Source of the DNA: Rhizophagus irregularis
Lineage: Eukaryota > Glomeromycota > Glomeromycetes > Glomerales > Glomeraceae
Length of the DNA stretch: 64,000 nt
Direction of reading: 5' to 3'
NCBI RefSeq assembly: GCF_026210795.1
Contig: NC_089429.1
Span: 1,984,001-2,048,000 of the forward strand
A model generated the notes under the pieces. The model was not told the DNA's origin, did no database searches, and was given only the letters and a program-made list of their open reading frames with translations. Both the position numbers and the translations under genes were made by a program. Positions 9,959-58,069 of this stretch are shown in pieces (position 1 is the stretch's first letter; each line of letters begins with the position of its first letter).

Positions 9959-9981
9959 GATGTTATGTTACTTATACTATA

Positions 9982-14585: not shown

Positions 14586-14754
14586 AGATATTATTAAATT
14601 TTAATTTTTATTATATTTTTAATCGTGTATTTTATTAGTTTAATATTAAATATTATAAAATAAATATTTACATACAAAAAATCATATTGTCTTTAATCTT
14701 TATTCTTATAAATTGTTTAAATGCCGAAACTCTAATTAAATCATATAGAAAGTA

Positions 14755-14912
14755 TTGCCGAAACGCCGAAACAGTTTCGGCAAGTTACGGCAGTTTCGCG
14801 ATTTTGATAGGTTTCGCAGTTTCGGCATTTCTTGATGATTTCGCGAAACTAGTTTCGGCAGTTTCGCGTACGCCATTCTGCCGAAACCCTCTAGTTTCGG
14901 CAAGCAACCTTA
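14755..14912. repeat. hAT 3' subterminal repeats and inverted end
   Basis: Multiple GTTTCGGC copies in both orientations end in GTTTCGGCAAGCAACCTTA, the complement of the 5' end. Confidence 0.88.
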
Positions 14913-14920
14913 GCTGTCAG
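14913..14920. repeat. hAT target-site duplication GCTGTCAG (right)
   Basis: Matches 10474-10481. Confidence 0.92.
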
Positions 14921-15042
14921 TGCTGTTAATAATGCTTGCGAATTCGGTATATGTTGACATGATTCTTTGTACTTTGTAAAAAATATAAATCTTCAGTTAC
15001 CTGTTCATTCAAATAAGAAAAAATAAGTATGAACCTCGGGGT

Positions 15043-15567
15043 TTACACTTGGGATACTGCAAGGCAGTAGAAGTGTCGCTCGGCCTTTTGTATCAATGGA
15101 GAGCCTGGTCTATATAACCAGGGGATAGCGACTTTCTGGATAATCCTAGCCGCTTTATTGTTCCTTCTTTCTATATATCTCCTAAAGGCTTTCTGGATCA
15201 TTTCAGCATGATGAGTATAATAGTCGAAATTAAAATGCTTTGAACAACTATATAAATGTAGTCGTACTGCTTGATCCATGGAAGTGTCGGCTCCCCATCC
15301 GCGATCAATAAAAGATTTACAGTAGGTACAGTACCACTTATTTGGTAGTCGTGATACTATTCTCCTAATGTGCACAATATAAGCATATACAGCTTGACGA
15401 GACCTTGGATAAGGTAGCCGCCTATGAAAACCTATTCTACTACAAGTCTCATAATATTGCACAGCATTCTGAATGCGCTTAGCCCACATGTGGAAACTTT
15501 CGTCGTCTTGTCTACCTAATCCGTCGGTGTTTTGCATTTGGGTATCTTGTAAGATTACATATCCCAT
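15043..15567 (-). CDS. IQ-motif / Cys-pair protein of the virus-like element (left copy)
   Basis: A 174-residue protein from ATG 15567; the frame stays open four codons further upstream but has no ATG there. It contains a Trp-rich N-terminal half, a YCTYC cysteine pair with downstream Cys/His that could bind zinc, and a C-terminal basic helix IQKAFRRYIERRN followed by ARIIQKVA, which matches the calmodulin-binding IQ pattern (IQxxxRxxxxR) twice. It lies just downstream of the polymerase gene in the same orientation with a short spacer. The right twin is at 59987-60511 and differs by two residues. I do not recognise the family; calmodulin binding is inference. Confidence 0.6.
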   Translation of the reverse strand: MGYVILQDTQMQNTDGLGRQDDESFHMWAKRIQNAVQYYETCSRIGFHRRLPYPRSRQAVYAYIVHIRRIVSRLPNKWYCTYCKSFIDRGWGADTSMDQAVRLHLYSCSKHFNFDYYTHHAEMIQKAFRRYIERRNNKAARIIQKVAIPWLYRPGSPLIQKAERHFYCLAVSQV

Positions 15568-15630
15568 AGGTTTATTCAATTATGCCATCACGATATGTCA
15601 GTAAAAAATAAACCTACCAGTTCTTAGCAA

Positions 15631-17484: not shown

Positions 17485-17567
17485 TTGATGTATTTATGAA
17501 TTGTGTTCAGTTGTAATATAGGTTTTTTATACAAAAAATATAAGATAACTAAGAAGTGCTTATCTTA

Positions 17568-20044
17568 TTAAAAGGAGTCAATCTTGCTGCATACACGATC
17601 AAGATCCTCTTCATCCCAGTCGTCGATGAGTCCATTGGCGGCTTCCCATTCACGTTCCATATCGGTTTTTGGACGTTCTTCGGGGATCTCTCGCGCTTTA
17701 CCCTTATCTGCCCTCATAGTTTCATAACCAGAGGGGGTGGGGATAATTTCAGCATCACGATTATCCTTGTATACTCTTATTAAATCTGCGAGTTCTTTAC
17801 GACTAGGTGTTTTAGGTAAGTATCCATTATATTCGATCCAGTCCTTGAAGCAGTCTACTACTTCCATAAGGTAATACTGGTACTCGTCCTCAATACGCGT
17901 TGTGGGACATTCCTCTACTTCAAACGCGAGTATTTCCCAGTCGTATTCATCTGACGCGTCTTGGTACTTGGCCCATAATTCCTTACCTGTATTGTAGAGA
18001 TCATCGAAGGTTTGGTCCTTTGAATTTTTAACCCACGGTTTGCGATCCCATCGGTGTCTTTCATGCCAAGCCCAGTGCGCTCGAGTGCCTTCCTTTGGTT
18101 CAGGATCCTGGTCGACTTCTGGTTCTGTGTCGGGTTCTGGGATAAATTGCTCTTCAGGAGCCGGTTCTGGGTCAGGCTTAGTGACAGATGCAGAAGATTC
18201 TGCGGGAGACTCGAGTTGTTGTTCAGGAGTTGGGTCCACGGTTGTAAAATCTGAGTCAGATAGCAAGTCATCTAAAACGTCATAGTCATCATCTGGTTCA
18301 GGGGTAAGTTCTTCTTGGTCAGGTTCCTCGTCAGATAGATAACAATCTGAGAAGCTATCTATAGGTTTATCAGTGTCTGACTCATTAGTATCTTCATCGG
18401 GATCCGGTTGTTCTTCCCTTAACTTTTGTGGACGTTCTTTTAAGTGATCAGGCTTGGGTGGAAGCGGTGGAGGAGTCTTGCGAATTACAGGTGCGGGTTT
18501 TTCCTCAGCGGGTTTCTCTTGTACGTCTTGTGGATTGTTGGCTGGATTATATATATTTGCCAAGAACTTCTCTAAGGCTTTGGGATCTGATGCGGGTTTT
18601 TTAGAAGTCTCTATATCGATTCCTTCTATGTCTATCTCGTCTGTTTCGTGGATCCAGTTTTTGCTGAGGAATTTCTTGTAGAGGTCCTCCCTGGATATGC
18701 TGTAAACTCGAGTGCGCTTCTTATCAATATACATTCGATCACTATTTATATTTAACTCATTTGATAGGATTCTAGAAGCATTTATCTTTGATAGGGGTGA
18801 AATGCAATGAGTTTCGCAATATGAAGTATATACCCTATAAAATTCTTGAACAGGTAGGTCGGTCATATAATTTTTCATTACGAGATATGTGTCCTTTATA
18901 AATTGGAATAGCGGTGGAAGAGTCGAGATGATATGTTCCTGTTTGGATGTTGTCATAGGTGGCGGATTTCCATTGAAGTCCGGGTAAGCATTCGCGATGG
19001 CTCTCAAGTATGCATAGAATGCCTCACTGGCGCCTGGGTATTTCATAGCGTCACCGAGTTTTTTGAAGTAGTTGAGGTCTCCCTTGCGAGATGGTGACAC
19101 GTCCAAGAACACTGTGCGCCTATCATCATTCTCCACTCTGAGAGCATTTTCGTTGGTTAGGATGATAGTGGACATAAAGTTCTTGTAATGTGTTGGCGTC
19201 TTGTATTTTTCATGGATTTCCATTATGTCACTCGTTACCTTATCTTTTAAAGAGCGATATAGATTATTCCACTGGCTTTTTTCTGTGGGCATTTCCTCGA
19301 GAAGGAGAAGAATCTTACCTTGTAATTGCCCATTGAAACTTCCAAGAATCGTCTGAGGATCGCTGGTCTTATAAACGAGTTGAGTGCCTAGGGACGCTGC
19401 GCTGAATGAAATCTGTTATAATACCTTTGCCCCAACCCTGTCCAGATTTCAGGTAAAGGATCGAGTACATCTTCCTTCCAGCAGATACACCGGCCAACCA
19501 CTTGATGATATACTCAGTGAGATTCCAATCACCCGAACACCAGATATCCTGAATGTGAGGAAGATAAATTTAACCGCGAGGTGAATTGTAGACTCAAAGG
19601 TAGATATCGGACGTAAGACGTGGAGGAATCCGGGAAGATATTTAGATAGAGTTGGCCGGTTAAGGATCTGAAGATTCGCTGTTTATGGGGATCACAGGTT
19701 GCATTACATACATCGGTATTCTCGACCATAAACCATTTGTAGATGTTGAACTCGGTCTTTTGAGAGGGTCCTTGTTCAGATTGTGTGTAGAATGCCTTCG
19801 TGATTGGACGGATAAGTTTACCAATATTTTTGTCAATAACGTGTTTCAAACTTTTACTATCCGGGTCCCACCAGAAAACCCCATGAAAATCTGCACAGGG
19901 AATGAAATAACTGCAAAGATACCTCTTGGCTTGATCGAGGTCACTCATACTCTTTGCAGCGACAATAAGCCGTTTAAGCTCATCGATACTGAAGGCTTTC
20001 GTTTGTTCACCGAACTTAGGGATAACTTGAGCTTGAGCGGTCAT
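17568..20044 (-). CDS. Primase/SF3-like helicase region of the virus-like element (left copy)
   Basis: The region upstream of the polymerase in the same orientation. The start-side part (from ATG 20044) has conserved Trp/Asp-rich blocks. A Walker-A-like GQGWGKG, an acidic Walker-B-like block and ILTNENALRVENDDRR (sensor/motif C) mark a superfamily-3, D5/DUF5906-like helicase, the replication helicase of many small eukaryotic DNA viruses and some phages. The other end is a long Pro/Glu/Asp-rich, probably disordered tail from about residue 230 of the larger 574-codon frame, then a helical segment. The left copy has a long intact frame of 574 codons; whether the start-side part is one gene, spliced or lightly broken cannot be settled here. 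The right copy (55510-57986) has about two or three breaks. Confidence 0.65.
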
Positions 20045-20671
20045 TTTTTCGTTCTATCAAATCGAGTACTAATTTATAGTTACCTAATCTTCAATTGCCG
20101 AATGTATTTTTTCCAAAGATCCGCGCTCCTACCCGGTTATCCTCCTGCGGTTCTACAGACCTTCTAGGGATTATACTTGCATGTCAGAGTAATATGTTTA
20201 CCTGAGTATGTTAGAAGTGCAGATTACCCGCTTACTTGCTCACTGCGTTCGCTTTACATAAAAGTAATCAACCCGCTAACCGAAGATATAAACCTACCCG
20301 CTGACCTACCTGTTATCAGTTCGAAAAGCCGATTGGAGGCTAAGAAATGTGGGACAGATTTTTTGGGACAGACGGGACCGATGGGACGCATTTTGGGGGG
20401 TAAAAATAAAACTTTTTCTGGGGGGATGTCCTTTCCTATATTTCTGAAATATCTGTCCCATTTGTCCCATCTGTCCCCCCCCTCTTATTCTCTCTTCTTT
20501 TGCTTCCTTTTCTATTGTTTTCTGGTTTTTGGTTATATATTTATGGGACAGATATGGGGACAGATATGGACAAATATATGGGGAGTCATACCCCCACGGA
20601 GGGGGGATGTAGGTACTGCGAAGCCGTGGCCGAGGTGGGGTGAGCGCTAGCGAGACACACTACCAGCCCGA
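20045..20671. other. Terminal non-coding region of the virus-like element (left copy)
   Basis: About 600 bp with unusual composition: G- and C-rich runs, repeated GGGACA / TGTCCC hexamers in both orientations (20350-20570), and a GC-rich end reading GAGCGCTAGCGAGACACAC. Matched by 54885-55509. This is the likely element terminus, and the hexamer clusters could be replication or protein-binding sites. The open frames that cross it look spurious. Confidence 0.6.
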
Positions 20672-20682
20672 CGACAAAGATA

Positions 20683-26024: not shown

Positions 26025-26030
26025 AAAACC
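26025..26030. repeat. Target-site duplication AAAACC (left of the 18 kb transposon)
   Basis: AAAACC directly abuts the inverted end and recurs at 44066-44071. Confidence 0.85.
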
Positions 26031-26228
26031 TATGGCACGCCGGACTGGACAGATGTTTAAAGGTGAACTACATATTGTTTAACGTTTAAGGTTAAATGTA
26101 AAGTCAAAATGATTTGCCATTACCGTCAAACCATTTGACTTTAGAGTCATATCCTTTGCCAATACCGTCATATCCTTTGCCAATATCGTCAAATTGTTTG
26201 ACTTTCCAGTTATGTTACACAAAAGTTT
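26031..26228. repeat. 198-bp terminal inverted repeat, left
   Basis: Reads TATGGCACGCCGGACTGGAC onward and matches the complement of 43868-44065 with about six mismatches and no gaps that I can see. Contains two adjacent CATATCCTTTGCCAATA-type repeats inside. Confidence 0.92.
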
Positions 26229-26428
26229 TACTAACGAGCAAAGCATTTAACGTTAAAGTTCAATTTGTTTGTCGCCAGGCAAAGAGTTTAATGTTTGGGT
26301 TCATATGAAATTCTATTTAAAGTCTTATCCATTAAAGGTTATGCGTAATTTTTAACCATTTTTAGTAAAATTTTTTGACCATTAAAGGTTATGCGTAATT
26401 TTTAACCATTTTTAGTAAAATTTTTTGA
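26229..26428. repeat. Left subterminal repeats of the 18 kb transposon
   Basis: About 1.5 copies of the 41-bp unit (complement of the right-end array) lie at about 26229-26300. Two perfect 50-bp direct units, ATTAAAGGTTATGCGTAATT..., follow at about 26329-26428. Confidence 0.75.
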
Positions 26429-26779
26429 ACATAAAAGGCAATTTAAGCAAATTTTATACATATTAAGATAATTTCAAATCACTTAATATGGTATGACCAA
26501 AAATAATTTAAAAATCACCTTTTTTGAAAATTAACAAAAACATCTCAAAAAATTTTTTTTTTCTCGCGAACATGTGGTATACCATTAGTTTAGGCAATAC
26601 GGTTTTTACCATTTTTTTTCTCACATTCCCCTTATCCAATTTTTACCCCTGACTCCTGTACGCATTTTTTATTTTTTCACGTACAAAACTTTTACTTCGC
26701 GTATAAATCTCTTTTCCAAATATCTTTTTTTGTGTATAAATATCTTTTCTCTCATATACCATACATAATATTTTCAATA

Positions 26780-29595
26780 TGTTTGGAAAGGGAAAGTGCT
26801 TTAAAAAGGATTGTGGCTGCCAGAAATTTTGGCAAAAGCCTGACGCCTCAGATGCTAATATGTGTGGTTGTGATCACCACGAAGCGTTTCACGAACAAGT
26901 AATAAGTTTATTTTCTTTTATTATCTGTTATTGTAATTAAACGGATTAATATAAATTTTATGAATTTTATTTAGAGACCAACAGGAGAAAGTAGTTCATT
27001 TGCTTCTGCTTCTACTGTGGAATCCAATAATGATAGGAACTCTTTAACAAGTTTACGCGTTCCACCTGAAACTCTATTTCTTGCTACAAATCGAATACCT
27101 CAAGAGATTGATTCGATACAGTCAAATAATGTCCGCGCATTTTTACGTTCAGAACAACTCAAAGGAAACTTGTCAGTTGTAGCTACTAATATGTCCAATA
27201 GATTAAATTTTGATTTACAGAAGGAACATAGCAAATACAAAATTAATTCCAAAAGAAGTTATAAAAAAAATAAGACCAAATCAATTTCATTTGATTTCAC
27301 CTTAATTCCAAAAAGAAACATATCCACTATCCCAAAAAGAGGGAATGAACTGTAAGCTTTTTTCTTTTCTTTAATATTTTTTAGTTTAATATAATTTTTC
27401 ATGTAATTATTTATTACAGATGGGACCAGTTGAATTCCCAAAATTTGTTATTAAGGAAAATTTCCTTTAATCAAGACGATCCATATTATATTAACAACCA
27501 AGTTACTTCAGTCTTCCCTTGTTTAAATCAAACTGGCTGGGTATGCTACAAAGCAAAGACTACTAGTGAACTTGAAGAGACTCCATTTGAAGCTAGTGCT
27601 ATTAAAGATCTTGAATATATTAGAAGGTATCATCAATATTTAAATTTTGATATTAATTTATATTATTGATACTGATTTAAATTGATTTTACAGAGCATCT
27701 ACGAGTAAATCCAAAGTATATATAAAACCCATTATTGACAATTTATGTGAATCTTCTGACAGTTCAACTGACAATGAGGAAATTGAATCACCTGATGGCT
27801 CACTTCAGAACCTCATGAAGGATTTCCAACGCAAATTACAAGACCAATATATTAATAGTAATACTACTATTCATATAACTGTAAACGAAAATTACATTGT
27901 TGAATCATTATTTCAATGGGTTAAGGATGCAAGTGATGATGATTTATTGCGTCGTCCATCAATCGTATTGGTTTTAGAAGAGTAAATAATTTAATATTAA
28001 TAATTTGTTTTTTGTTTTTATTTTAAATTTATTTTTCTTTATTACAATTTTAGTGTAACAGATACTGGAGGCGTTTTCCGTCAAATAACATCAACTTTCT
28101 GGAACAAAGTCCTTGAATGTGATTTGTACTTTACAAATGGGATAATCGATAACACAACGGAATCTCATATTCTAGGCAAAATGTTATTTTGGACCATCTT
28201 ACACTGTGGTCTATGGCCACAGTGGCTTCACAAATTGCATATACAATATTTTATTGATGAAAAAATAGACGTGGTGAACGTTCTAAAAACAACTAATCAT
28301 AATGTTTATCGCTTATATCGTCAAATAAAACACAATATTGACGCTAAAAAATCATTAAATGTATATTTAAGCAATAGAGAAATTGATGTAAGTATAATTT
28401 AAATTTAGTATAATTTTTTTAAATAAAAAAAAAATTAAATTATAAATTAATTTTTAATACTTAGGGTGAATTTAGTTCTTTAAGTAAAGAAGAACAAGCT
28501 GCTTTTATAGCAGAATATGAAATTATCACCATAAGAAAAAAAGCTCTTGAGGAATTAAAACTTGGATTCGATAGATTTAACATTATTAATGTCGACATAC
28601 TATAAAATACTCAGATTAATATTTATATTACTTAATTGAAACTTTCATTTTTTAGGAGTTAAAAAACAACTGCAATTATCATAATTTAGTTCGGGAGCTT
28701 TACTACAAATTTACATACGAAATTATAATGAATCAATTTGATTGCAACCATGTGGAACTTCAGGCACTCCATAAACCTGAATATCTTCAACTATTTAACA
28801 AGTTTAAAGAGATGTTAAAGTCCATGAGTGAAACGGAATTAAAAATAGTAATGAAATTTATCACAGGAGCAGAAATAATTCCAGCAATTCCCAAAATTAA
28901 GGTATTGTAAATACTTTCATTAATTTTATCATTAAATTAAAATATATTTAATATTAAATTTCAATTAGATCTCATGGGTTAACCTTAAACCAGAAGAAAC
29001 TTCTCTCTGGGTAAATCGATTACCACGTGCCTCTACATGCGGAAATATGTTAACCTTATGTGAAAATTACGAAATGTCCAGTGAAGGATTTAATGTCTTT
29101 AAAAATGATCTATATGTTGGATTTATGAATTACGAAGCTTTCTCAGAGTCCGTATATTCAAGAACTTACAATATTAATTATTCTTTACAAGATGAAATTA
29201 GGAATGCAATGGAAATCTCACCAAGTTCACCAAGTTCTTCTACAGTTGTGACCCCAATTCGATTATCAACAGCTCAATTTAATTCAACATCTACGGTTAG
29301 ATCTTCTGGTAATTCACTTGATAATGCTATTTTTATTGATGATGCAAACAACAATTCTTTAGAATTAAATGCAGATTCTCATCAGGTAACATTTTAACTA
29401 AATTATTATAAAAAAATTATTTAAATAAGATTTAATAATGAATTCTTAAACATAGAACTCTTAAACTTTTAGACCGCTAGTTTGAATACAGAAAGTCAAA
29501 GAGAATACCGATGGGTAAATGTTAACCCTTTAGAACGAAGAACAAGGAGGAGGAACAATGATTCCGAAGTTGAGGGCGAAACAACAAATAATTAG
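26780..29595 (+). CDS. HECT-type E3 ubiquitin ligase, nine exons, cargo of the 18 kb transposon
   Basis: Exons by GT-AG and frame continuity: 26780-26898, 26975-27351, 27420-27626, 27694-27981, 28054-28387, 28465 to about 28590, 28656-28901, 28969-29385 and 29473-29595; about 745 residues (start within one base). The N terminus is a Cys/His cluster (C7, C12, C14, C29, C31, H33, H34, H38), a likely zinc site. A basic Ser-rich linker follows. The HECT domain begins around DVTDTGGVFRQITSTFW, continues with LGKMLFWTILHCGLWPQWLH and ends with KFITGAEIIP and LPRASTCGNMLTL, where the Cys (about residue 590) matches the HECT catalytic cysteine. A Ser/Thr/Asn tail follows. It would transfer ubiquitin to targets. 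The sixth donor is not canonical, so that junction is uncertain. G2E3-like HECT proteins are the nearest relatives I can suggest. Confidence 0.78.
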
Positions 29596-32500
29596 GGCTA
29601 TCTCTATTAAAGTTTAAATATATTTTATCAAAGTTGTAGCAATCAAATTTTGAATATATTGATGATAAATGAAATTTATTTTGTACGTAATGAAAATATT
29701 CAAGTATCTTTCATTATTAATCTTTTCTCTCCCCTTGGTCAAACGATGAAGAATCGGTATATTAAGAACCGGTTAAGAATTAGTTTCTGAGTGAAATTCA
29801 CAATAATTAGTTATTGCTCAGTAAAATCATCGATGGTCCATATGGTTAGAAAATGATCTACATTCTAATAGAACATGCATAATGATCGAACAATGGGCTG
29901 TGCGACACAAATTCCTCCTAAATCTGCATAGTTCATAAGTTTGAAGTAAAGTAAAAAGCTTTTACACATTAACTGTTAACACCAGAAATCTAGAATTAAA
30001 TAAATGGTTCGTTGGTTTTTCTTTTTTATTTTTTATAGATTCTTACTTCTCCGAAGGGGACTTTTGCGCCATTACCTATATGAAATGTCTTTTGGACGCG
30101 GGTAGATCTTTTTTTCAGTGGGAATTTCGGGAATTGACTTCAAGAAACGCATTAATATTCCTTTTATTTTATTTTTTGTAGGTTCCATATTCATTGGACG
30201 CGGGTAGGTTATTTTTTAATGGAATTTCCGGAATTGACAAAAGAAATGTGTCGACGTTTAACATTTATTTTAGATATGGGTATATTATTTTTTTTTTAGG
30301 TTTTAGAACGAACTTTAAAATACACATTAACGGATCTTTTCTTTAATTTTTGTAGGTTTTAGGCTTCGATTCTTTGGAGATAAGTGTGTAAGCATTGATG
30401 CTTCAAACCTTTTGCTTTTCTTGCTTCTTTTAGGAAACATTTTACTCATATTTCCTTTTTTCTTTCTGGACTTCATTTCTTGGTTAATGGGTTTTACTGC
30501 AAAGCAGGACAATCAAACGAATAACTGGTGACCTGATACCAACCAAGGACAGAAATAAAAAAAAATAACTAAAAAGGTTTTAGTGTTAAGTTTCAAATAT
30601 TTTTTCTTTTCTTCTTTTAGGAAGCATATTATAAACATTTTCTTTTTTATCTTTGTAGGATCCGGGCAAAATTCCTGGGCGGTGCTATAACAAGAAGTAC
30701 TGTAAGTCGGTTTTGATACTTTGAAACTTTACTATTCTTTTCTTAAGAATTATCCATTAGGGATGACTTTGAGTACGAGTACCAATTATTTAAGGTATGG
30801 TAGTATAAGGGTTAGAATTTTAGGAAATTAACTTTTAGCTAATGTTCCTTTCAATTTATTTAGAAACAACCAAATTCTCTAGGGTATATTGATGTGGAAA
30901 CTTTGACATATACTTATATTTGTTGTTAATGGTTTGGAACATTGTTCCAGTTGGTTCGATTCCAACAAACAACTATACAAAATTCTAATATTTCATAATA
31001 ATAATAAAGTACAATGCATATAGTAAGTATAAAATCAAGATATCATTGTGATATTTTTCGTTAAAAAAAAATTTCCTGTGTAGGATCATTATACAGCTCC
31101 TCCTATCTATCTTACCAAATACTCCGATATCAATATTTTTTATTTTTGCCAAGTTGAAATTTTTCTGTCGTTGTGTTCTCTCTATCTCTTACAGGAATTT
31201 TTCACATACATTCTATTTTCCTCCTTTCACTTTCTGTCACACCCAACACGTTTCCTACCACCAACACGCTCTTTTTTGCTATTTTTTGCTATTGCTTACA
31301 CTACAGTTGTTCGCCCTAAGGTTCTTAATTATCATCACATTATTTTTTCTAAATCTGATTTAAAAGCTGCTATTGAATCCAAAAAAAAAAGAAGCTGAAA
31401 CTAAAAAAGAAATATGAAAGTTAATAATAAATAATGATACGAAAAGAAATAAGAAAATAAATACACACCCGGTCATCAAAAAAGTATGATGATTATCAGG
31501 TAAAACCAATTATTTAAATAAAGAGGGGGACGAAAGAGAGGGAAAAAAAGAAAGGAAGAACGGAAAAGAGCAATTACAAAAGAGAGCGAAGTAAAAAAGT
31601 TTTTATCTTCTTTCTAATCTTCAATTTTTCACGTTAGATCTTGCATTTGATAATGTTTCCTAAATGATCAACTTCCATCAAGTATGATGCTCCTAACGAC
31701 AAAGATCAATGCACACCTGAGCTTGATTCTTGATTTCAACAGACTCCTCCAACCTGAATTTTGGATGTGCTTAATTTTCTCCTACCAGTCAAACATTTAA
31801 AATCTCTTTATTACATTTACGTTCTACAACTAATAGATAATTGTGATGCTCCTAGCGACAAAGATCAATGTCCACCTGATCTTGATTTCAAAAACTTTCC
31901 CCAACCACGAATTTAATTTCTCCTCCCGGTCAAACATTTAAAATTTGTCCTCTTTATCACATTTATGTTCATCTAGCATTCACAACGTCAATTAATTTTA
32001 CGTAAATATATGCTTTCACCCCTTTAATTTCTGAAACAAGCATATTTAGATTTCTCCATGGCCATATACCGGTGATATTTGACCTCCTATTTTCTTTACT
32101 CTATTTCTTCCTGTTCCTCTCACTATTCCTCCTGTTTTTCTGGATTGGGTTCATGAATATAATTATAGTCTCAAATTCATACATTTCCCCTTTCCTTCTG
32201 ACAATTATTAACTGTTTTCTTCTTTCCAGAGATACGACTGGTATATATATATAGCATCTTCTACGACACCTATTCACCTTTTTATTATTCATCCCGTTTT
32301 TCCAGTTCTATGTTCTTTACTTTTCTTGCTATATTTATTTCTTAGCTTTCCTGGTTGCTTTTAATGCAATAACTAGGTGAGAAAAAAGTCGAATGTAATT
32401 TAATAATTGCATCCAATCACGTGTTTCTGACAATGAAAATTGGATTATCAAAATGGTGACTATTTTTTAAATCAGGATTGACATTTTTTTAAACGCATAT

Positions 32501-32603
32501 ATTTTAGACGCGTTCTTTATTTAGTTTAGTAAAAAATTATATGGGTTAATTGGCTTTTTTTTTTATTAAGATCTTTAATTTTCCATAAACCCATAAATAC
32601 AGT
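29596..32603. other. 3 kb non-coding stretch between the two transposon genes
   Basis: No supported gene. 30000-30690 holds degenerate repeats of a T-rich tract ending in TAGG plus GGACGCGGGTAG and GGAATTTCNGGAATTGAC pieces (two clear copies). About 31687-31825 and 31848-31975 are diverged direct copies containing GATGCTCCTAACGACAAAGA. Short open frames near 31154-31398 and 32072-32254 are low-complexity Phe/Leu and not convincing. Confidence 0.55.
30922..30973 (+). other. tRNA-like hairpin pair (too short for a real tRNA)
   Basis: GTTGTTA pairs with AAACAAC at six of seven positions; inside are a perfect TGGAAC-ATT-GTTCCA hairpin and a perfect T-arm-like GTTGG-TTCGATT-CCAAC. Total 52 nt, no D arm. 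Probably chance or a tRNA-derived remnant. Confidence 0.2.
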
Positions 32604-34064
32604 ATGGCATTAAATTTTCCTACTGTTGAGGAACAACAATTTGAAGACTTTTCTACTACAATAATACAAAATTCAATAAGCTTTCTTGGTAGCGGTGATA
32701 TTAATGCGTTGGAATTGTGTGTGGAAAGATTGAATCTCTTGTCAGCAATGTACTCATATTTATTAAACGTAAGAGAACAACCATACTATATCACTCAAAT
32801 AAATACAATTTTACTGCTTAAAGACCAGTTGGAAACTCGGATTGAAAATTTGCAAGACGAAAGTTCAAACATTAATAGCAGGTTGGTTTCTTTTAAACCA
32901 ACAGGCGGAAGATATAAAGTAATCATTTTGGAATGTGCATTACGCTTATTAAGACAGGAAGGTTTTGAATGGACCCAGATTGCTGAAATTTTTGGGGTTT
33001 CAACAAAAACTATATATCGACGCCGAAAAGAATATAACATACCAGATGACTTAGCATCTTATACAGAAATAACCAACGAACAACTTGATGATCTTATTAG
33101 AGATTTGAGGGCTGAGCATCCCTTCTTTGGACAAGTTCTTTTAATGGGATCATTATGCTCATTAGGAATAAGAATTCCGCGTCAACGGTTGCGTGAATCA
33201 CTGCAACGAATTGATACTTTTGGTGTTCTCAACCGTTGGTCCAGCATTATCCCGAGGAGAGTATATAGCGTAGCTGGCCCCAATTGCCTCTGGCATATTG
33301 ATGGCAATCACAAACTGATACGATGGAAGTTTGTGATCCATGGTGGGATAGATGGGTATTCACGATTAATTACTTATCTAAGATGCTCAGGAAACAATAA
33401 GGCTGAAACTGTATTACACGCTTTTACAGAAGCATGCAATACTTATGGAACTCCTAGTCGTGTTCGAGCAGATAGAGGAGGAGAAAACATTCGAGTTCAA
33501 CGTTATATGGAGTCATTTAGAGGAAATGGCCGAGGTAGTTTTATAGCTGGTTCATCCGTACATAACCAACGCATCGAAAGGCTGTGGGTTGATCTTAAGC
33601 GCATATTAAAGATTTACATTATTGCTTTTAATTATTTAGAGGAAAATTGCGGTTTAGATATTGACAATACTGTATATATGTTCTGTTTACATTATGTATA
33701 TATGCCAAGAATTAATAATACTTTAAAATTATTCGCAGATGCATGGAATTTGCATTCAATCCGGACAGAACATAATTTGAATCCGACACAACTTTTTACT
33801 CGAGGAATGTTACAATATGGAATAAGAGGGATTGAAAATAATTTAGTAAGTAATTTAGAAGAATACGGCATAGACTGGGATGGTCCTATACCAACTATTG
33901 AATCTGACACAGTTACGGTTAACGAACCAACAAATATTTTAAATGCCAATCAATCTTTAAATTTAGCTTCTAGAATTGACCCTTTACAAACAGATGAATG
34001 TTATGGAATTAATGTTTATTTGGAATGCGTACGTACCGTTGCTGATATATTACAAAATTCTTAA
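32604..34064 (+). CDS. Integrase-core DDE transposase of the 18 kb transposon (IS3EU-like)
   Basis: A single-exon 486-residue protein from ATG 32604. N-terminal helices and a possible coiled coil (about 10-95) precede a helix-turn-helix (about 121-146, [22 protein letters not shown]). The integrase core (about 220-345) has the catalytic triad D233 (LWHIDGNHK), D290 (RADRGGEN) and E325 (NQRIERLW), a D-D(34)-E spacing. HGGIDGYSR and [11 protein letters not shown] are signatures of eukaryotic integrase-like transposases related to IS3. It would cut and rejoin the element ends. It is the only transposase inside the 198-bp inverted ends, and no break is visible. A host-domesticated copy is unlikely given its place inside the element. 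Confidence 0.9.
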
Positions 34065-35411
34065 TTACAGTAGAAAAAAATAAATCTTATGATTAACATT
34101 TAAAACTGTATAAATGATTTATTATATTGTTTTAAAGTTCACTATGTATTATCGTGTACTGTTTTTTGTTTGTATAAATTGGCCTGCAAACTTTTTAATT
34201 AAATTACTGCATCTACAATGCAATTTTGACATAATGATTATGCAATTCATTCTAACCATAAATATTCTAACTGGCAATTTAATTTTTGTGAAAAATCAGT
34301 AATGACAATTTATATTGATTCTAGATAAAATCACATATTACTAATTTTAAAATTTTCTTATTCTACATATTTTATTTTAAAGATCTATCAATTAAGTTTT
34401 AATAGAATTTATATTCTAATAAAAGGAATCAATAATAACAAGTAATTTATTTGGATTAACTTAAAATATTTACTAAAATTTATAATCTAATACTATTAGA
34501 TTAGATTACAATTTTAATTAATTTAATTAATCCATTAACACAAATTATTCTTTATTATTTTTTATTTATTTTTTTTAAAAGTACTATATTATTCTTTATT
34601 ATTTTTTTTTATTTTTTTTTAAAAAGTGCTATAATACAAATTTTTATATATTGCAATTAATAAGATCAGAATTTTCTTAAAAATAATTAAAGTAAACTAG
34701 CATCTTTAATAATACTATATATTATTATAAAAGCTATATTAGTATAATTAATTAAAATTAAAATAAAGGATAAGATTTTGAATATAAGATGAAGAAATAA
34801 AGAATATAAATAGGTGTTATTATATAATAAGAAATATTACTACTCTAACTAAAAAGAAATTATTAATTTTAAAAATTTTTATTTATTTTATTTATTACAT
34901 ATGCATTACTTTTAAATAAAATTGTGTAATACTAACTAAAATTAAAATATATAAGAAAAATTTTAGTCTTAATCTCCCATTATATTATATAAGACAATTT
35001 GTGCTTGTATGTATTTAAAATCATGATGGCGTTAAATAAATAATTTGTAAATATATATATACTTAATAAAATACAATAAAATTTAGTAGAAAAATCTTAT
35101 ATAAATATTATAAATTTTTAAATAAATTATTAAAAATATAATAAAATTTATAGGTTTTTTTATTTATAATAAATAATATTAATAATATATAAATAAATTA
35201 AAAAAAACATCAATTTATATTAAAAAAGTAAATAAAATAAATATACAATTCAAAAATATTTTTTATTTTATAATTCTTAAATAAATACATAATATTTAAT
35301 TATTTTATTAAATAAAATAGAATTATTTATAATTTATTTTATTAAAAATAAAAATAAAATAAAAATTAAAAAATTATCTTAATATATATAAATTTTATTT
35401 AGTTATATATA
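34065..35411. other. Extremely AT-rich spacer in the 18 kb transposon
   Basis: Almost only A and T with long runs of TTTATTATTTTTT and TAAATAAAATA. No gene or ordered repeat that I can support. Confidence 0.6.
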
Positions 35412-35631
35412 GTGCTTCGATCCGGATGAAAACTTGAATATTTTCATGTGACGATTATGGCTGAGAAAGATTATGAATTTCAGATTTAAACAGACTATAA
35501 TTTAAACCAACATTAAAGTATTATTATCCCAAAAATTTATACTAATTCTGGCCAAACTCATAGTGCCAGCGAAATTTAATGAAATTCAATCCGGATGAAA
35601 ATCCGGATAAAACCGCTACGGATCGAAGCAC
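35412..35631. mobile_element. Short MITE with TA duplication (mariner-like ends)
   Basis: 220 bp with inverted ends GTGCTTCGATCCG... and ...CGGATCGAAGCAC, flanked by TA on both sides (35410-35411, 35632-35633). Subterminal CCGGATGAAAA repeats occur at both ends. No coding capacity. Nested in the 18 kb transposon. Confidence 0.8.
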
Positions 35632-35852
35632 TAGTTATATAATAAAAATATATATAATAATTTGTAATAATAAATTCTATTAAATATAAAAAATAATAAT
35701 TAATCATCCTCCATATCAGTAGATATTGTATAACTACTTTATTATTTTCTTAATCATTTTGATTTAATTGGTAATACATTTAATAATAAAGAAATATTAA
35801 TAATTAAAATATTTCTTAATATTTCTTATATGTAATAATACATTTATAAATT

Positions 35853-36870
35853 CTAATAAATGCATCTTATCACTAGTTGGCTGTACTGGAATTTAGTAGA
35901 ATATAAATGATAAAGACGATTAACTTTAGATGTATTTCTAATAATAATATTAAAATGCATTTTATTTCCAGCATTTTGAATTCCAAGAATTCCAAATTTA
36001 TCTTTATCAAGTCTATTCCTTTTATATATATAATTTATTTCATTATTCATCTCTCTCCATAATTTTATCTTATCTTTTTCTTCTTTATCATTATTACAAA
36101 TTAAACAGGAACATTCTACAAATATAAGTTCAACTAATTTATCTTTTTTTTCTATAAACATAATATCAGGTCATTTTTCCTGTTTTTTATAATTTTTTCT
36201 TCTAGTTGCACTAGCTTTACTTTGTTTTTCAGCACTAAATAAATAATATTAATTAGATTATTTTAATATTTATATTATAATAAAATTTAATTAAACTTAC
36301 GTGCTAAGTAAATTAACATTTCCAATTATAAGATCCTTTAATGTAGTACGTAAAAGTGGAACAATAACATCAGTTACATATGTTCCTTTACTTTGTATAT
36401 TAGCAAATTCAGATTTAAATGCTGGATTTTTCCATATATTACTCCTTTTAAAATGTAAATTAATTATATAATTATAAATTTATAATAAATAATATTTTTA
36501 AATATTAAAAATTACTTACAAAGTATTAAGAATTTCTTTTGTAATTTCACACAATTTTTCATTTGATTCTATCCAAGTATTATTATATTTATATTTATTA
36601 TATAATAAATTTAAATTTTCTTTTTTAAAATCATTTAAAAATTGATTGCATTCTTCTTGAATAATATTTATTAAACTATTTATTTTTATTTGTTTTGCTA
36701 ATTTTATAAAAGATTGGTATGCTTCTACTGATAAATTTTTTATTATATCTGAATCATCACTAATTACTTAGCTAGCAATTGAATCCTTCCAGGTTAATTT
36801 ATCAATATCTATATATTCTAAATCTAATTGTATTTCTGAAGCATATGAAGAATTATTTGTCCAAAAAAAA
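35853..36870 (-). pseudogene. Decayed copy of a repetitive Glomeromycotina gene family
   Basis: Exon-like blocks on the minus strand, separated by AT-rich GT-AG gaps: about 36540-36720 (EECNQFLNDFKKENLNLL, then TWIESNEKLCEITKEILNTL), about 36300-36445 (SEFANIQSKGTYVTDVIVP) and 35853-36235 (AEKQSKASATRRKNYKK, then VECSCLICN, LWREMNNEINYIYK and FGILGIQNAGNKMHFNI). The last block has an in-frame TGA (about 36165-36167) between its two halves, and another stop lies in the first block region. The domain order resembles a large uncharacterised family I associate with Rhizophagus genomes; the function is unknown. It is inside the 18 kb transposon in the opposite orientation, so probably a captured or inserted host copy. 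Confidence 0.55.
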
Positions 36871-37729
36871 TTATATAAATTTATATTAAAAAATTAAATA
36901 ATATTAATTGTTAAAAAAAACAAATACCTTAAGTTTCTTTTTTAAATCATTTATATTATATTTGATTTCTTTGTTATTAAGAACTTTATTATCTATTTCA
37001 ATATCACAAATACTATAAATACCTTCAAAAGCAATTTGAAATCAGCGCAAAAAATTGTATTTTAGTAAATAAAATATTAATATATATATGTTTTTAATAT
37101 CATGAGCTCATATAGTCATGTTATCAGAATATTATAACAAAGTTATCATTTCTGTATGGCCTATACATAGTGAAACAACTTTGTTTTTTACATATAAATT
37201 TTTAAAACTTATAAAATTAAAGTCTTAGTACTTTCCATACGTCCTCAGAGTTGAATATTCGATACTATGTAGCCTATAAAACAAGTACATATTATATCGT
37301 TATACTTTATTGTGTAAAGTTGAATTCAACACTAGTATGTTTATTAGATTCACCCAATAGACTAAAATATTATAAGTCTAAAAATTTATCAAAAAATGCA
37401 CCATTCATCATTTAATAAATTGATTTTTAATAATATTTTAAACATACCTATTCAAAATATTATTTATTTTATCTTAAGCTTCCATTTTTTAAAATTTTTC
37501 AGTTTTTAATGCTTCATTACTAGCTTTTTCTACTGTTTATTTAATTTTTCTTTTTCTATTAAAGGTTTATCTTTCATTATCTAATAAATAACAGAAAAAA
37601 AAGTAATATGATTTAATGGTGAAGTAATAAGAAAATTATAAATTTTGTTATATAATAATTCGGACATATTTGTTAATTAATAAATTAATCAAAAAATAAA
37701 ATAAAAAATATTACGCTGTCCTTTAAATA
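36871..37729. other. AT-rich spacer
   Basis: No supported gene. A short block near 37030-37330 is less AT-rich but shows no conserved frame. Confidence 0.4.
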
Positions 37730-38900
37730 GCTTTAAATAGTTTTTTTAATATTATATAATAAATTATATTTATAAATTACAATTACATATATTAGTAAAA
37801 TAAAAATTTTTTATATCTGTATCATTATATTTTATTTACCTTATATCAATTTCTTAGTATCGTTGATATAATTTCTATAAATTAAAAATTATTAATATTA
37901 TATTATTATTTACAGTAGTTTTAATAAATAAAATATTAAATTGGTAATTTTTTTTATATGCATTATTACATATTCATATACATTTATACTTATCTTTAAA
38001 ATTTTTTTTATCTGCATCATTATTTTGTGATTATATAATAATAAAAAATTATATAAGTTCGTTGAATTAATTTCTTAATATCGTTGATGTAATTTCTATA
38101 AATTAAAAATTATTGATTATTTACAGTAGTTTTAATAAATAAAATATTAAATTAGTAAATTTTTTATCTGCATTATTACATATTCATATATATTTATACT
38201 TATCTTTAAATTTTTATCTGCATCTTATCTGCATTATTTAGTTACATATTTATATATATTTATACTTATCTTTAAATTTTTTTATCTGTATAATTATTTT
38301 GTGATTTGTAATTATATAAATTTGTTGAATCAATTTCTTAGTATTGTTGATGTAATTTCTATAAATTAAAAATTATATATTTATATACATTTATACTTAT
38401 TTTCAAATTTTTTTATCTTTATCATTACATATTTACATACATTTATACTTATCTTTAAATTTTTTTTTATCTGCATCATTATTTTGTGATTTTGTGACAA
38501 TAAAAAATTATATAAATTCATTGAATTAATTTCTTAGTATCGTTAATGTAATTTCTATAAATTAAAAATTATTGATGTTATATTATTATTTACAATAGTT
38601 TTGATAATAAAATATTAAATTAAAAAATTTTTTTATCTGTATTATAACTATTATTATTCCATATTTATATACATTTGTATTTATCTTTAAATTTTTTTTA
38701 TTTGCATCATTATATTTTATTTACCTTTGAATTTTTGTGATTTTTGTAATTTTTGTAATAATAAAACTTTAATGAATTAATTTCTTAATTTCGTTGATGT
38801 AATTTCTATAAATTAAAAATTATAAAGTTATATTATTATTTACAGTAAATTTTGATAAATAAATAAAATAAATATTAAATCAAAAGGTTTTACATTTATA
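37730..38900. repeat. Degenerate tandem repeat, units of about 200-260 bp
   Basis: At least five copies of a unit containing TTTCTTAGTATCGTTGATGTAATTTC, then TATAAATTAAAAATTATTGA, TTTACAGTAGTTTT and TATACTTATCTTTAAATTTTTTTATCTG (each given in part) start near 37850, 38070, 38335, 38530 and 38783. No coding. Confidence 0.7.
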
Positions 38901-38943
38901 TTATTATATTTATATTTATTTATATGGAAATAATAATTTTATG

Positions 38944-39095
38944 CAGGTGTGTTGCAATGCACCCCCCCTTTTTGGAATTATTAAATAGTAAATTTGCTGA
39001 TCATAACATGATCATAAATGATCAACAAATTTACTATTTAAAAATTTCTAAAAAAAGAAGGGTGCGTTCATATACAGGTGTGTTCAAATTTTAAA
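38944..39095. mobile_element. Palindromic MITE flanked by CAGGTGTGTT repeats
   Basis: Direct repeats CAGGTGTGTT flank a near-palindrome: left arm GCAATGCACCCCCCCTTTTTGG with TTAAATAGTAAATTTGCTGATCAT, right arm its complement. The 10-bp flanks would suit a Mutator-like element. Confidence limited by the small size. Confidence 0.55.
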
Positions 39096-39883
39096 CCCTA
39101 TTTATATTTATCTTTAAAATTTTTTATAAGTTTTTATAATAATTAAAAATTATTTATTAAAGTAATTTCTTTTATTCATAATAATTAAAATTTTATAAAT
39201 CTGATTTTTTAATATTGTTTGTTGATCTAACTTCTATAATAACTAGAATATGCGATTTTCTGGAGGACTTTGTCCCCAAATATAACATCTATAATTGAAA
39301 AAAATCTTTAATATAAATAAATTGAATTGTGTAAAATATTATTGAATAATAAAATTTCATTATAAAAAATCATGCTTTAATAAGGTTTTATATAATTTTT
39401 TCTTAAAAATAATATATCTAAGGGATATAGGAAAATGCAATTCCATATCACAAAAATGCATTGTTTGTGATTTGACTACAATTTTTACTGAATTTATATT
39501 GATTTGATCACAGAATTACATAATTTGAATATGGAATTTACATGATTTGATCAATGAATTTACTATTTAAATTACGATTATTAGCAATTTATATGAATTT
39601 GATTTAAATAATAATATTTTATTTTTTATTTTTTTTTTTAATGATTTATATATGCTTTATTGATATGTAGTTTATATACCATACAAACAAATTATCATAA
39701 GCTATATGAAAATAATAATATTTTATTAAATTATTAAATTAAATATAAAAATATAACAAATCCTTAGTATCATGTAATTATAATTAGCCAATAATAATAT
39801 AAAATAATTTTTATCATTTAAAATAATAATATAAGTTGTAATAAGTGTTCTAAGGTTAATACAGCTACAAAAAATGAAATCTT
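39096..39883. other. AT-rich spacer
   Basis: Contains short repeated TTTATATTGATTTGATCA pieces near 39480-39600; no gene seen. Confidence 0.4.
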
Positions 39884-40655
39884 ATGAAAATTAATATTCA
39901 AGTGGTTTCAACCTGCCTGAACAACTTTCAATTAATAAATGAAGTTGATTTCATTTGTCCAAAGTGGAGATATTATGCTCTAAATTAAAAAAAAAAGAAA
40001 AGAGAGTTAATATCATCAAGAAAAATGCAAATTTCTTTAAACACTACACTTACATTCATGAAAATTAATATTCAAGTGATTTCAACCTGCCTGAACAACT
40101 TTCAATTAATAAATGAAGTTGATTTCATTTGTCTAAAATGGAGATATTACGCTCTAAATTAAAAAAAAGAGAAAAGAGAGTTAATATCATCAAGAAAAAT
40201 GCAATTTTCTCTAAACACTATACCTACATTCATGAAAATTAATATTCAGGTGATTTCAACCTGCCTGAACAACTTTCAATTAATAAATGAAGTTGATTTT
40301 ATTTGTCCAAAATGGAGATATTACGCTTTAAATTAAAAAAACAGAAAAGAGAGTTAATATCATCAAGAAAAATGCAATTTTTTTTTAAACACTACACCTA
40401 CACTCATGAAAATTAATATTCAAGTGATTTCAACCTGCCTGAACAACTTTCAATTAATAAATGAAGTTGATTTCATTTGTCCAAAGTGGAGATATTACGC
40501 TCTAAATTAAAAAAAAGAAAAGAGAGTTAATATCATCAAGAAAAATGCAATTTTCTTTAAGCACTATACCTACATTTATGAAAATTAATATTCAGTGATT
40601 TCAACATGCCTGAATAACTTTTAATTAATAAATGAAGTTGATTTTATTTGGTGAA
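39884..40655. repeat. 174-bp satellite, about 4.4 copies
   Basis: Units start at 39884, 40058, 40232, 40406 and 40578 (partial). Each contains ATGAAAATTAATATTCAAGT, TTTCAACCTGCCTGAACAAC and GAGAGTTAATATCATCAAG. Copies differ by only a few percent, so the array is recent. No coding frame. Confidence 0.92.
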
Positions 40656-42833
40656 AAAAGAAGTTTAATTTAAAAAAATTTATATAAAAAATAAATGTAA
40701 TATAAAAATTAATAACTGAGATAACAAAAATATGAAAATAATCTGACATGAATTTTAAATTAATTTTTACATTAATTTATCCCTTAAAGTGTTTTGCAGC
40801 TAAATTTGGTTGCGATTTACCACTACTCATGTACCGATCTAAACTGTAATACAATGAAATTCCATGGAATCCTCTGTGGAAATTCTGAAAATTCTGCGAA
40901 ATTTAAAACAATAACAATCATTTAAAGGATAAATTCAAGAGTTTAAAATAAAAATAGTAAGAAAAATATTTTTTATAAAATATTACATTATTTTCTAAAA
41001 GAAATACACTTATAAATTTAATTGTAATTATGTAATATCCAAATATTTAATCTTACAAATAGAAAAAAAATGTAAAAAAAAAATTTCATGATGTTTTATA
41101 AAAAAAGAAAAAAATTTAAAAAAATTTTCACACATCATACCATTATTAGGCATGCCCGTACAATAACATATTTAAAAATTTTTGATAAAATTAATTAACC
41201 AAGATTGGATTAGCCACAAAAATCTGCATATGATCATGATATTTTAATATTTTATCTATAATAAATACGGAATAGATTGGATGTAATTATTCATACGAGA
41301 AATATATATATATATATATATCTAACACTTTTTTTAATTGATTATCACAAGATCTATATGATCATCTATACGTTTTTAATTTTTTAACGAAAAAGAAATA
41401 TATTTAAAACTTTATTTAGTATTTCTTTGAAGATCAATAATGATCACCAAAATCAAATATGAATATAAAACTTATTGTTTGATGTCACAAGTTAATATGT
41501 AGTGAAAGTGGCACAAAAATGAATATTTTGTAATTTTATTCTAATGATATCAAAGAAGCAATATTGCAATATTGCAATAATAATATTCATAGTTATAGCA
41601 ATAGCAATAGCAATAGCAATAGTAATTGCAATTGCAATTTATATAGCATAGCTATAAACTTCAACTACGAAGTTCACATGATGCATTTTCAAAAAAATGA
41701 AAATCTGCATGAAGATTAGAGGATCACTAACTAATTAAGCGAAAAAGTGAATAGATAAGAAAGGTTATGCAAGATCGTCGTTGCGTCGAAAGTTATCTTA
41801 CCGCAAATTATATGTTGTAATATGTATTACTTGTATTCTGTAAATCTTATAAATAATGATAATTTAATCTTATATTTGAAAATCATATGATTAGACTATC
41901 AATTTGTTTTTCAATTTTAAAAGAAAAATTTAAGTTAAAATTAAAAGAAACTTTTTAATTAAACTATAATTTTTACTATAATTTATAACTTATCTATAAA
42001 TTTTTTACTTGTAATTAATATTATTTGTTAAAGTAACTTATTACATGTTAATTAAGTAATATTATTGAATTAAATTTTTTAATTTAGATTAACTCAATTC
42101 GATTTGAGTTAAAATTTAGATTAATTTGACTCAATTCAAGTTAAAAGTTTTATTAAATTTAACTTGACTCAATTTGACTCAACTCTATTAAAAATTAACT
42201 CAACTCAATTCGACACAACTTATTTATAGGATAATTCAACTCAACTTGACTCATTAGGAGTTCTACTTTTAATAATATAATAATTGTCTGATTTTTGTAT
42301 TTTTTATCTTTATAATATAATTTCTTTTAATATAATACCTGATTTAGTTTTATTTCTTTTTTCTAATATTTTATCTCTCATTTTTGATTATTTTCTTTGT
42401 AAAATTTTTAGGTGTTATTAATTAAAATAAAATCAAAAAAATTCATGATTGCATTGCAGTCTATATGGAAAGTTAAGGGTAAATTATTCTAATATATAAT
42501 TTATATTTTAAAAAAGTAATATTGGTAATAAAAGAAATTAATAATATTATATATATCATATATATAATAAATATTTATTTTTGAAAAAAAATTTTATTTT
42601 TATTTTTTAAATTAAATTTTACTTTTTTCTTTTATCTTCCTTTTATACTTCCATTAATTTTATTGTTTTATTTTTTTATTCCTTTTATTTTTTTTTATTT
42701 CCTCTTTTTGTTTCTTTTTTATTTGTTTTTTTCTTTCATTTTTCTTTCTTTACTGATTTTTTCATTTTCTTTATTCTTTTTATTTATTTTTTTCATTTTT
42801 TGTTTTTTTGTTACTCTTATCTTAGCTTTTGAC
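40656..42833. other. AT-rich stretch with simple repeats
   Basis: Holds a (TA)n run near 41303-41321, an (AGCAAT)n/(TAGCAA)n microsatellite at about 41595-41640, a degenerate AACTCAATTCGA/AATTTGACTCAA repeat around 42060-42260, and a T-rich pyrimidine tract at 42600-42810. No supported gene. Confidence 0.6.
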
Positions 42834-42950
42834 TATACATGCCACCCAAATTTTTTTGGGCTGCTGTGATTATAAGTAAAATCCTAAATTCAATTATGAC
42901 ATCCCAAATTATAATTATGATATCTCAAAATAATTTGGGCAGCATGTATA
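42834..42950. mobile_element. Small MITE with TATACATGC... inverted ends
   Basis: 117 bp with inverted ends TATACATGCCACCCAAATT and AATTTGGGCAGCATGTATA. Flanks CTTTTGAC and CTTTCAAC could be a decayed 8-bp duplication. No coding. Confidence 0.55.
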
Positions 42951-43257
42951 CTTTCAACTGCATTTTTTTGTTTTTTACTTTTCTTTTTATTGCTATTTCT
43001 GATTTTTATTAATATATCTCTATTCAATGAATAATAAAATTTTTGTTAAAAATTACTACTGCAATTTTAAATTTTAAATAGATCAAATTATAGTTGATTT
43101 AATTTTGGCCAGAATTATGTACTAATTCTGGCCGGAATTATACAATTTCCTAAAAAGAAAAGTAGTATTACATAAGATTCCAAATGTGTACTTGAATTTT
43201 CACTCAAAAAGGAAATGATTAACATATAGTTTGGCCGGAATTATAAATTGTAAACTT

Positions 43258-43868
43258 GTTTGCACTTTAACATTAAATGCTTTACCTGTTGGTAAATGGT
43301 TTGCACTTTAACATTAAATACTTTACCTGTTAGTAAACTGTTTGCACTTTAACATTAAATGCTTTACCTGTTAGTAAACTGTTTGCACTTTAACACTAAA
43401 TGCTTTACCTGTTAGTAAATGGTTTGCGCTTTAACATTAAATGCTTTGCCTGTTAGTAAATGGTTTGTACTTTAACATTAAATGCTTTGCCTGTTAGTAA
43501 ACTGTTTGCACTTTAACATTAAATGCTTGGCCTGTTAGTAAATGGCTTGCACTTTAACATTAAATGCTTGGCCTGTTAGTAAATGGTTTGCACTTTAACA
43601 TTAAATGCTTGGCCTGTTGGTAAATGGTTTGCACTTTAACATTAAATGCTTTACCTGTTAGTAAACTGTTTGCACTTTAACATTAAATGCTTTGCCTGTT
43701 AGTGAACGGTTTTACTTTAACATTAAATGCTTTACCTGTTGGTAAACAGTTTGCATTTTAGTATTAATGCTTTGCCTGTTAGCAAACTGTTTGCACTTTA
43801 ATATTAAATGCTTTGCCTAACTTAATAAACTGTTTGCTCTTTATCATTAAATGCTTTACCTATTAACA
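43258..43868. repeat. 41-bp tandem array, about 15 units, right subterminal region
   Basis: Unit: GTTTGCACTTTAACATTAAA followed by TGCTTTACCTGTTAGTAAACT, repeated about 15 times with few changes, and running directly into the right inverted end. The same unit, inverted, lies next to the left end in about 1.5 copies. Likely transposase-binding or spacing repeats (inference). Confidence 0.93.
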
Positions 43869-44065
43869 AACTTTTGTGTAACATAACTGGAAAGTCAAAC
43901 AATTTGACGATATTGGCAAAGGATATGACGGTATTGTCAAAGGATATGACTCTAAAGTCAAATGGTTTGACGGTAATGGCAAATCATTTTGACTTTACAT
44001 TTAACCTTAAACGTTAAACAATATGTAGTTCACCTTTAAACTTCTGTCCAGCCTGGCATTCCATA
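43868..44065. repeat. 198-bp terminal inverted repeat, right
   Basis: Complement of 26031-26228 with about six mismatches; ends CCATA. Confidence 0.92.
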
Positions 44066-44071
44066 AAAACC
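44066..44071. repeat. Target-site duplication AAAACC (right of the 18 kb transposon)
   Basis: Matches 26025-26030. Confidence 0.85.
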
Positions 44072-54880: not shown

Positions 54881-54884
54881 GTCA

Positions 54885-57986: not shown

Positions 57987-58011
57987 TAAGATAAGCACTT
58001 CTTAGTTATCT

Positions 58012-58021: not shown

Positions 58022-58069
58022 GTATAAAAAACCTATATTACAACTGAACACAATTCATAAATACATCAA

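Follow-up and report, generated by a model that had tools for sequence, protein, structure and literature searches.

An IS3EU-like transposon lineage of Rhizophagus irregularis encoding an integrase-core transposase and a HECT-type ubiquitin ligase

Results

A DNA transposon with two protein-coding genes

We analysed a 64-kb stretch of the Rhizophagus irregularis genome (C1:1984001-2048000, hereafter the window; assembly of 146.7 Mb in 32 contigs) and describe a DNA transposon of 18,035 bp at window positions 26031-44065, the focal element, which carries genes for a DDE integrase-core transposase and a HECT-type E3 ubiquitin ligase. Complete members of its lineage very probably constitute a two-protein mobile unit made of this transposase and this ligase. 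By sequence comparison we show that both genes lie between TATGG..CCATA ends in two lineages, that of the focal element and that of a sister element on contig C8, that insertion leaves 6-bp duplications, that both genes have been kept by selection, and that shorter relatives have spread.

A first-pass annotation of this DNA had described 198-bp inverted ends, TATGG/CCATA termini and AAAACC on both sides, all of which were confirmed by direct reading and alignment (Table 1). Aligned over 198 bp, the ends differ at 6 positions, 5 of them among the outermost 24 bp, and both contain 21-bp direct repeats. On contig C29, the first 117 bp of the left end are found again at 100% identity (C29:691268), as are the outermost bases of the right end, unchanged (C29:815418). 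Since each version of the end recurs, the mismatches do not reflect random decay, and it seems that left and right ends are meant to differ.

The eight introns of the HECT gene are all GT..AG and its frame contains no internal stop, the splice sites of this model having been picked by hand so that the frame stays open. The model matches an annotated R. irregularis protein, P0121 (742 aa, 99% identity), and exceeds the Pfam cut-off for HECT (PF00632, 23.9 bits) with 32.0 bits, the C8 counterpart scoring 33.9 bits; the nine-exon gene of the first-pass annotation is thereby confirmed. A catalytic-type cysteine, Cys590, sits in an LPRASTC motif, corresponds to C587 of P0121, is invariant in 5/5 aligned HECT proteins, C8 included, and aligns with the catalytic cysteine of a host HECT protein encoded on contig C28. 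The focal and C8 proteins have in common an N-terminal Cys/His cluster, which may bind zinc, and a C-terminal HECT domain. AlphaFold2 prediction from 4 sequences gave a mean predicted local distance difference test (pLDDT) score of 30.7, and a PDB sequence-profile search returned a single chance-level match (E 0.061) and no convincing relative. Two protein searches were performed with the HECT protein, about 8,000 candidates being scored in each; both gave Rhizophagus proteins only, nine of nine in the search with 7,992 candidates.

The transposase is encoded by a single open reading frame (ORF) and matches PF24764 (Pfam, E 2.6e-82) in addition to helix-turn-helix (HTH) domains. Residues D233, D290 and E325 are invariant in 34/34 aligned relatives, a set picked out of 120 that were listed among 2,806, and 34 residues separate D290 from E325, which bears out the intact D-D(34)-E integrase-core protein reported earlier. 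The closest named relative, P0001 of R. irregularis, is listed as 100%. Beside the HTH matches, no zinc-binding integrase domain was found in the Pfam scan of the transposase, and an HHCC motif is lacking, just one histidine preceding H231 in the 486-aa protein. A scan of viral contigs with the transposase alignment produced 66 pattern matches and 0 confirmed relatives. PF24764 and PF00632 occurred together in no single protein among the 120 of 2,806 transposases or the 4 + 9 HECT proteins listed.

Table 1 Features of the focal element (window coordinates)
Feature	Position	Strand	Basis
Target-site duplication AAAACC, left	26025..26030	.	Read directly; exact match to right copy
Left terminal inverted repeat, 198 bp, begins TATGGCACGCC; ~3.8 copies of 21-bp direct repeat	26031..26228	+	Alignment and tandem-repeat search
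HECT-type E3 ubiquitin ligase gene, 9 exons, 745 aa	26779..29595	+	Gene model, Pfam
Transposase, 486 aa, with HTH at the N-terminus and DDE integrase core PF24764	32604..34064	+	ORF, Pfam, alignment
Relic exons of degenerate third gene	35853..37041	-	Also in C29 copy
174-bp tandem repeat, 4.4 copies	39884..40650	.	Tandem-repeat search
41-bp tandem array, 15 copies, immediately inside right end	43250..43865	.	Tandem-repeat search
Right terminal inverted repeat, finishing CCATA	43868..44065	-	Alignment
Target-site duplication AAAACC, right	44066..44071	.	Exact match to left copy

A complete sister element and further copies

A complete sister element of 9,676 bp occupies C8:4611612-4621287, with both genes in open frames inside inverted ends of about 450 bp (425/460 aligned columns identical) and a perfect CCATGG duplication. 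Its transposase shares 53% identity with that of the focal element. The HECT gene of the sister element, with ten exons encoding 856 aa, is arranged divergently relative to the transposase. The C8 ends are unlike the focal ends in sequence and likewise repeat-rich; the repeat arrays of both are plausible candidates for transposase-binding sites.

Second copies pairing these ends with both genes, the existence of which the first-pass annotation had made decisive, were found on C29 and at C1:4113-4132 kb; each retains the 3' end and both genes, and neither has a 5' end in place. The C29 copy is collinear with element positions 1509-18035 in pieces that are 86-99% identical; gaps and two long insertions, of about 6.3 and 4.6 kb, interrupt it. 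The window beyond the element ends has no match above 100 bits to the C29 stretches compared, inverted-end sequence excepted, which speaks for a unit bounded by its ends. The C1:4113-4132 kb copy contains HECT exons 2-9, the transposase in two frames and the 3' end. At C10:5131-5136 kb, HECT exons and a transposase fragment are found in the same order and orientation as in the focal element.

About 96 kb of other sequence (C29:691385-787815) lies inside one copy, through a large insertion, a rearrangement or an assembly join. As a possible empty-site case we also considered a single 124-kb insertion into a short family element on C29, parts of which C29:691268 and C29:815418 each abut, but do not propose it, as the 6-mers flanking the two halves differ (ATTTTC vs GGGTTG).

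Linkage, selection and shared history of the two genes

Genome-wide counts are based on the best-scoring candidates and are lower bounds. PF24764 has 14 matches in the genome, of which four exceed 260 bits (C8, the focal element, C1:4119 kb and C29) and the others reach at most 79 bits. All four near-complete transposase domains have a family HECT gene within about 3 kb. Conversely, in a protein search in which fragments were counted, 5/7 HECT-family loci have one of 13 transposase loci no more than 5 kb away, where about 0.006 such pairs would be expected by chance (7 x 13 loci x 10 kb / 146.7 Mb), and the pairing occurs in two gene arrangements.

Ratios of non-synonymous to synonymous substitution rates (dN/dS) between the focal element and the C1:4114 kb copy were 0.20 for HECT (bootstrap 0.13-0.27; 626/745 codons; dS 1.49) and 0.15 for the transposase (bootstrap 0.11-0.21; 481/486 codons; dS 1.19); between the focal and C29 copies, HECT gave 0.43 (0.24-0.72). 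Trees of the two genes agree over five taxa, each reading ((focal, C29), (C1:4114 kb, R. clarus), C8). The R. clarus HECT protein P0123 and transposase P0004 are each encoded on a contig of 1,735,819 bp, a hint that the genes are linked in a second species, adjacency not being proven. A second R. clarus pair (HECT P0128, transposase P0038; longest contig 1,954,759 bp) was set aside, P0038 being found on three contigs and P0128 being short (320 aa).

Several observations weigh against a unit of two jointly maintained genes. Neither further focal-type copy (C29, C1:4113 kb) is structurally complete: the first 117 bp of the C29 copy sit 96 kb upstream of the remainder, no match to element bases 118-1508 was seen in the C29 stretches compared, which cover a minor part of those 96 kb, and its ends, at a rearranged locus, have just 4 bp of flank in common (GGAC), while the left end of the C1:4113 kb copy was not found in the stretch compared. 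The C29 transposase is damaged by a stop codon and a break, that of C1 is split over two reading frames, and that of C10 amounts to a 44-codon fragment. Codon-aligned HECT rows from C29, C1 and C10 contain 1, 2 and 1 stops, some of which may be intron run-on, so that these copies have probably decayed. Transposase dN/dS between the focal and C29 copies is 1.06 (0.59-2.87), a value made uninformative by the small number of changes and the stop in C29, and dS is saturated wherever C8 is compared. Tree support is modest, the grouping of C1 with R. clarus receiving 57 and 78, two HECT matches (C5:5126 kb, C10:893 kb) stand more than 5 kb from any transposase match, and the restriction of the HECT relatives found to Rhizophagus means that the module may be young. 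Taken together, the complete C8 element, the linkage, the selection on both genes and the agreeing trees nevertheless support the earlier proposal that the HECT gene travels with the transposase.

Mobility of related elements

Of thirty loci retrieved by means of the focal end, 14 have both ends (13 distinct short elements); in the other 16, no more than one end was seen in the stretch examined. Nine of the 13 are flanked by exact 6-bp duplications and four by duplications matching at 5/6 bases. Twelve measure 418-452 bp and have ends that match the focal end at 77-79% identity, so that these elements may answer to the transposase of a relative. Paired C8-type ends (at least 88% identity) occur at seven loci, namely the C8 element itself and six elements of 2.9-4.4 kb, all with exact 6-bp duplications; the genome searches reported no HECT or transposase match in these six, whose insides were not read.

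The empty site bearing AAAACC once that the first-pass annotation had envisaged was not recovered when 500 bp of each flank were searched in this genome only. Matches to the left flank are diverged repeats, with about 70% identity for the longest, the right flank matches elsewhere only in its distal part, and no listed place bears both.

Other end sequences were noted in passing. A weaker C8-type pair (79% and 69%) lies about 6.3 kb apart at C8:4058591-4064940, possibly marking another related element, and a further C8-type match of lower identity or shorter length is present at C8:1213939-1214050. At C29:691268 (L004) and C1:4093357 (L070), family ends are inserted in the terminal inverted repeat of another copy, which may hint at self-targeted insertion. 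Two loci near contig ends, C4:21416 (L019) and C29:3285270 (L022), have a like element end and identical flank, as if a subterminal segment had been duplicated between chromosomes.

Non-coding anatomy and surroundings of the focal element

The right-hand 10 kb or so of the focal element (34.1-44.0 kb) has a GC content of 19% and consists mostly of tandem arrays and relic exons. Arrays resembling the 41-bp one, a candidate binding array for the transposase, are also found at the right ends of the C29 copy and at C1:4131 kb. The third-gene relic (35.85-37.04 kb) has no significant Pfam match, and no counterpart was noticed among the ORFs of the C8 element; being a relic in the focal and C29 copies and unnoticed in C8, this gene is probably not part of the core. 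The description of the element as unusually large therefore holds for its length of 18,035 bp and not for its gene content, the size being due to non-coding repeats, as the sister element manages with 9.7 kb.

The focal element sits in the spacer between two long inverted copies (window 7114-10482 + 14913-20675 vs 54881-64000), which are 97-99.5% identical over at least 9 kb, lie about 34 kb apart and are virus- or plasmid-like, with genes of DNA polymerase B-like and DUF5906 type among their ORFs. A hAT-like element with DUF659 and a hAT dimerisation domain, at about 10482-14912, is inserted in the left copy with an 8-bp duplication, GCTGTCAG, and the mirrored copy near 60.63 kb represents its empty site, with this 8-mer present once. 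On the minus strand, 1220-6841 encodes an intact 1873-aa ORF of a non-LTR (long terminal repeat) retrotransposon with reverse transcriptase and RNase H domains, its endonuclease matches falling slightly below the Pfam cut-off.

Discussion

A two-protein unit could work as follows. The transposase would bind the repeat-rich ends and insert them into target DNA cut with a 6-bp stagger, while the HECT protein would be a trans-acting accessory enzyme, ubiquitinating some protein that limits transposition. The likeliest such target would be a host silencing factor, an assignment by analogy that falls just short of an even chance; removal of a silencing or repair factor is our first choice because of the proposed anti-silencing role of TET/JBP enzymes and the proposals made for Helitron deubiquitinases, both considered below. 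In its full form, the proposal that the HECT protein is an obligate second protein, marking host silencing or repair factors or the element's own transpososome for removal, and hence a ubiquitin-based counter-defence parallel to the TET/JBP module, is a somewhat more tentative one. As a second choice, which we consider rather unlikely, the target would be the transpososome, with ubiquitin driving its disassembly or turnover.

More doubtful still is our third choice, that the HECT gene is a passenger, stably carried in the manner of the cargo of other large mobile elements and serving the host or nothing, without a role in transposition. Elements of 418-481 bp with like ends, too short for either gene, have transposed, so that neither gene is needed in cis, as a passenger would allow. 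Against this, HECT is under purifying selection at a depth similar to that of the transposase, and the Cys/His cluster and catalytic-type cysteine are kept between copies merely 30% identical, which together indicate a continuing function tied to the element.

That the ligase is instead a host gene lying by chance between inverted ends, or captured once by the focal copy, is very improbable. HECT genes are indeed ordinary host genes, with canonical Pfam matches at six other loci in this genome, but no transposase match of the type considered here lies close to any of those six, whereas the family HECT gene accompanies a transposase at most of its loci, in both arrangements and in an independent complete element. 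The five-taxon tree is alike for both genes, and the C8 element already largely refutes such a bystander.

Polintons, or Mavericks, have 6-bp duplications, long inverted ends, an integrase, a length of 15-20 kb, a protein-primed DNA polymerase B and capsid genes. The focal element resembles them in duplication length, long inverted ends, integrase-type enzyme and size, and viral/organellar-like DNA polymerase genes occur elsewhere in the window, but an origin from a Maverick/Polinton or a virus is scarcely credible, as those polymerase-like genes are situated beyond the element (15.6-17.5 and 58.1-59.9 kb) and no polymerase- or capsid-sized frame lies between its ends: beyond the HECT exons and the transposase, no stop-to-stop frame of the focal element exceeds 105 aa, a spliced small-exon gene still being possible, and the remaining C8 frames, not scanned with Pfam, reach at most 154 aa.

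To our knowledge, few eukaryotic transposons carry enzymes acting on host regulation. A conserved transposon-borne E3 ligase would point to protein degradation as another possible escape route from control. The system is tractable, with a single catalytic cysteine, short ends and a compact natural version of 9.7 kb, and a defined family is now available for annotating R. irregularis transposable elements, about two-thirds of which had stayed unclassified (PMC11075540); the transposase profile list of that 2024 curation does not carry the name IS3EU (PMC11075540).

Comparison with known systems

With host HECT proteins, such as those encoded on C28 (LPSAHTC) and C6 (YPIGRTC), the element proteins have in common the HECT domain and the catalytic-type cysteine motif, and hhalign gives a probability of 86% (local) or 94% (global) for the comparison of element and host HECT. 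What sets the element HECT apart from the host genes is its strong divergence, a short Cys/His cluster at the N-terminus and the observed linkage to a transposase.

Transposon-encoded enzymes acting on ubiquitin are also known from Helitrons and Helentrons with VTD or OTU deubiquitinase domains, for which protection of proteins required for transposition was proposed (PMC9741609). Those elements differ in being rolling-circle transposons, in removing instead of attaching ubiquitin, and in having the domain inside the Helitron reading frame (PMC9741609).

The closest likeness is to IS3EU (IS3EU/GingerRoot) elements, which have 6-bp duplications, inverted ends longer than 30 bp, TA..TA termini, given as TAYGG..CCRTA for fungal families, and an integrase-like DDE transposase without an HHCC motif, its first catalytic aspartate lying 100-300 residues from the N-terminus (PMC12730594, PMC10045372). 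TATGG..CCATA termini are common to the focal element, the C8 element and the six shorter elements related to C8; duplications are of 6 bp in the focal element (AAAACC), C8 (CCATGG) and the shorter elements, the C29 ends with 4 bp excepted; the inverted ends measure 198 bp and about 450 bp; and the transposase is integrase-like, lacks HHCC and has its first catalytic aspartate at 233. Ends, duplication length and transposase type thus fit the published description, and the IS3EU type suggested by the first-pass annotation stands as an assignment by features, not by a tree with Repbase entries. Ginger1 and Ginger2 were rejected, since they would need duplications of 4-5 bp (PMC10045372), as against 6 bp here.

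Extra genes beside the transposase are a further likeness. Fungal IS3EU elements are reported to carry TET/JBP dioxygenases and alpha-kinases, every TET-bearing family also having an alpha-kinase gene, and the TET/JBP enzymes are thought to aid escape from methylation-based silencing (PMC12730594). The elements described here differ from published IS3EU in that the extra gene encodes a HECT ubiquitin ligase, in place of a TET/JBP dioxygenase or alpha-kinase, and in their Glomeromycotina host. The main texts of PMC12730594 and PMC10045372 contain 0 mentions of 'HECT' or 'ubiquitin', and the literature searched, which did not extend to Repbase or most subscription papers, held no report of a HECT ligase in IS3EU. 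We therefore regard this lineage as an IS3EU-like cut-and-paste DNA transposon of Rhizophagus, in which HECT appears to be a previously unreported extra gene.

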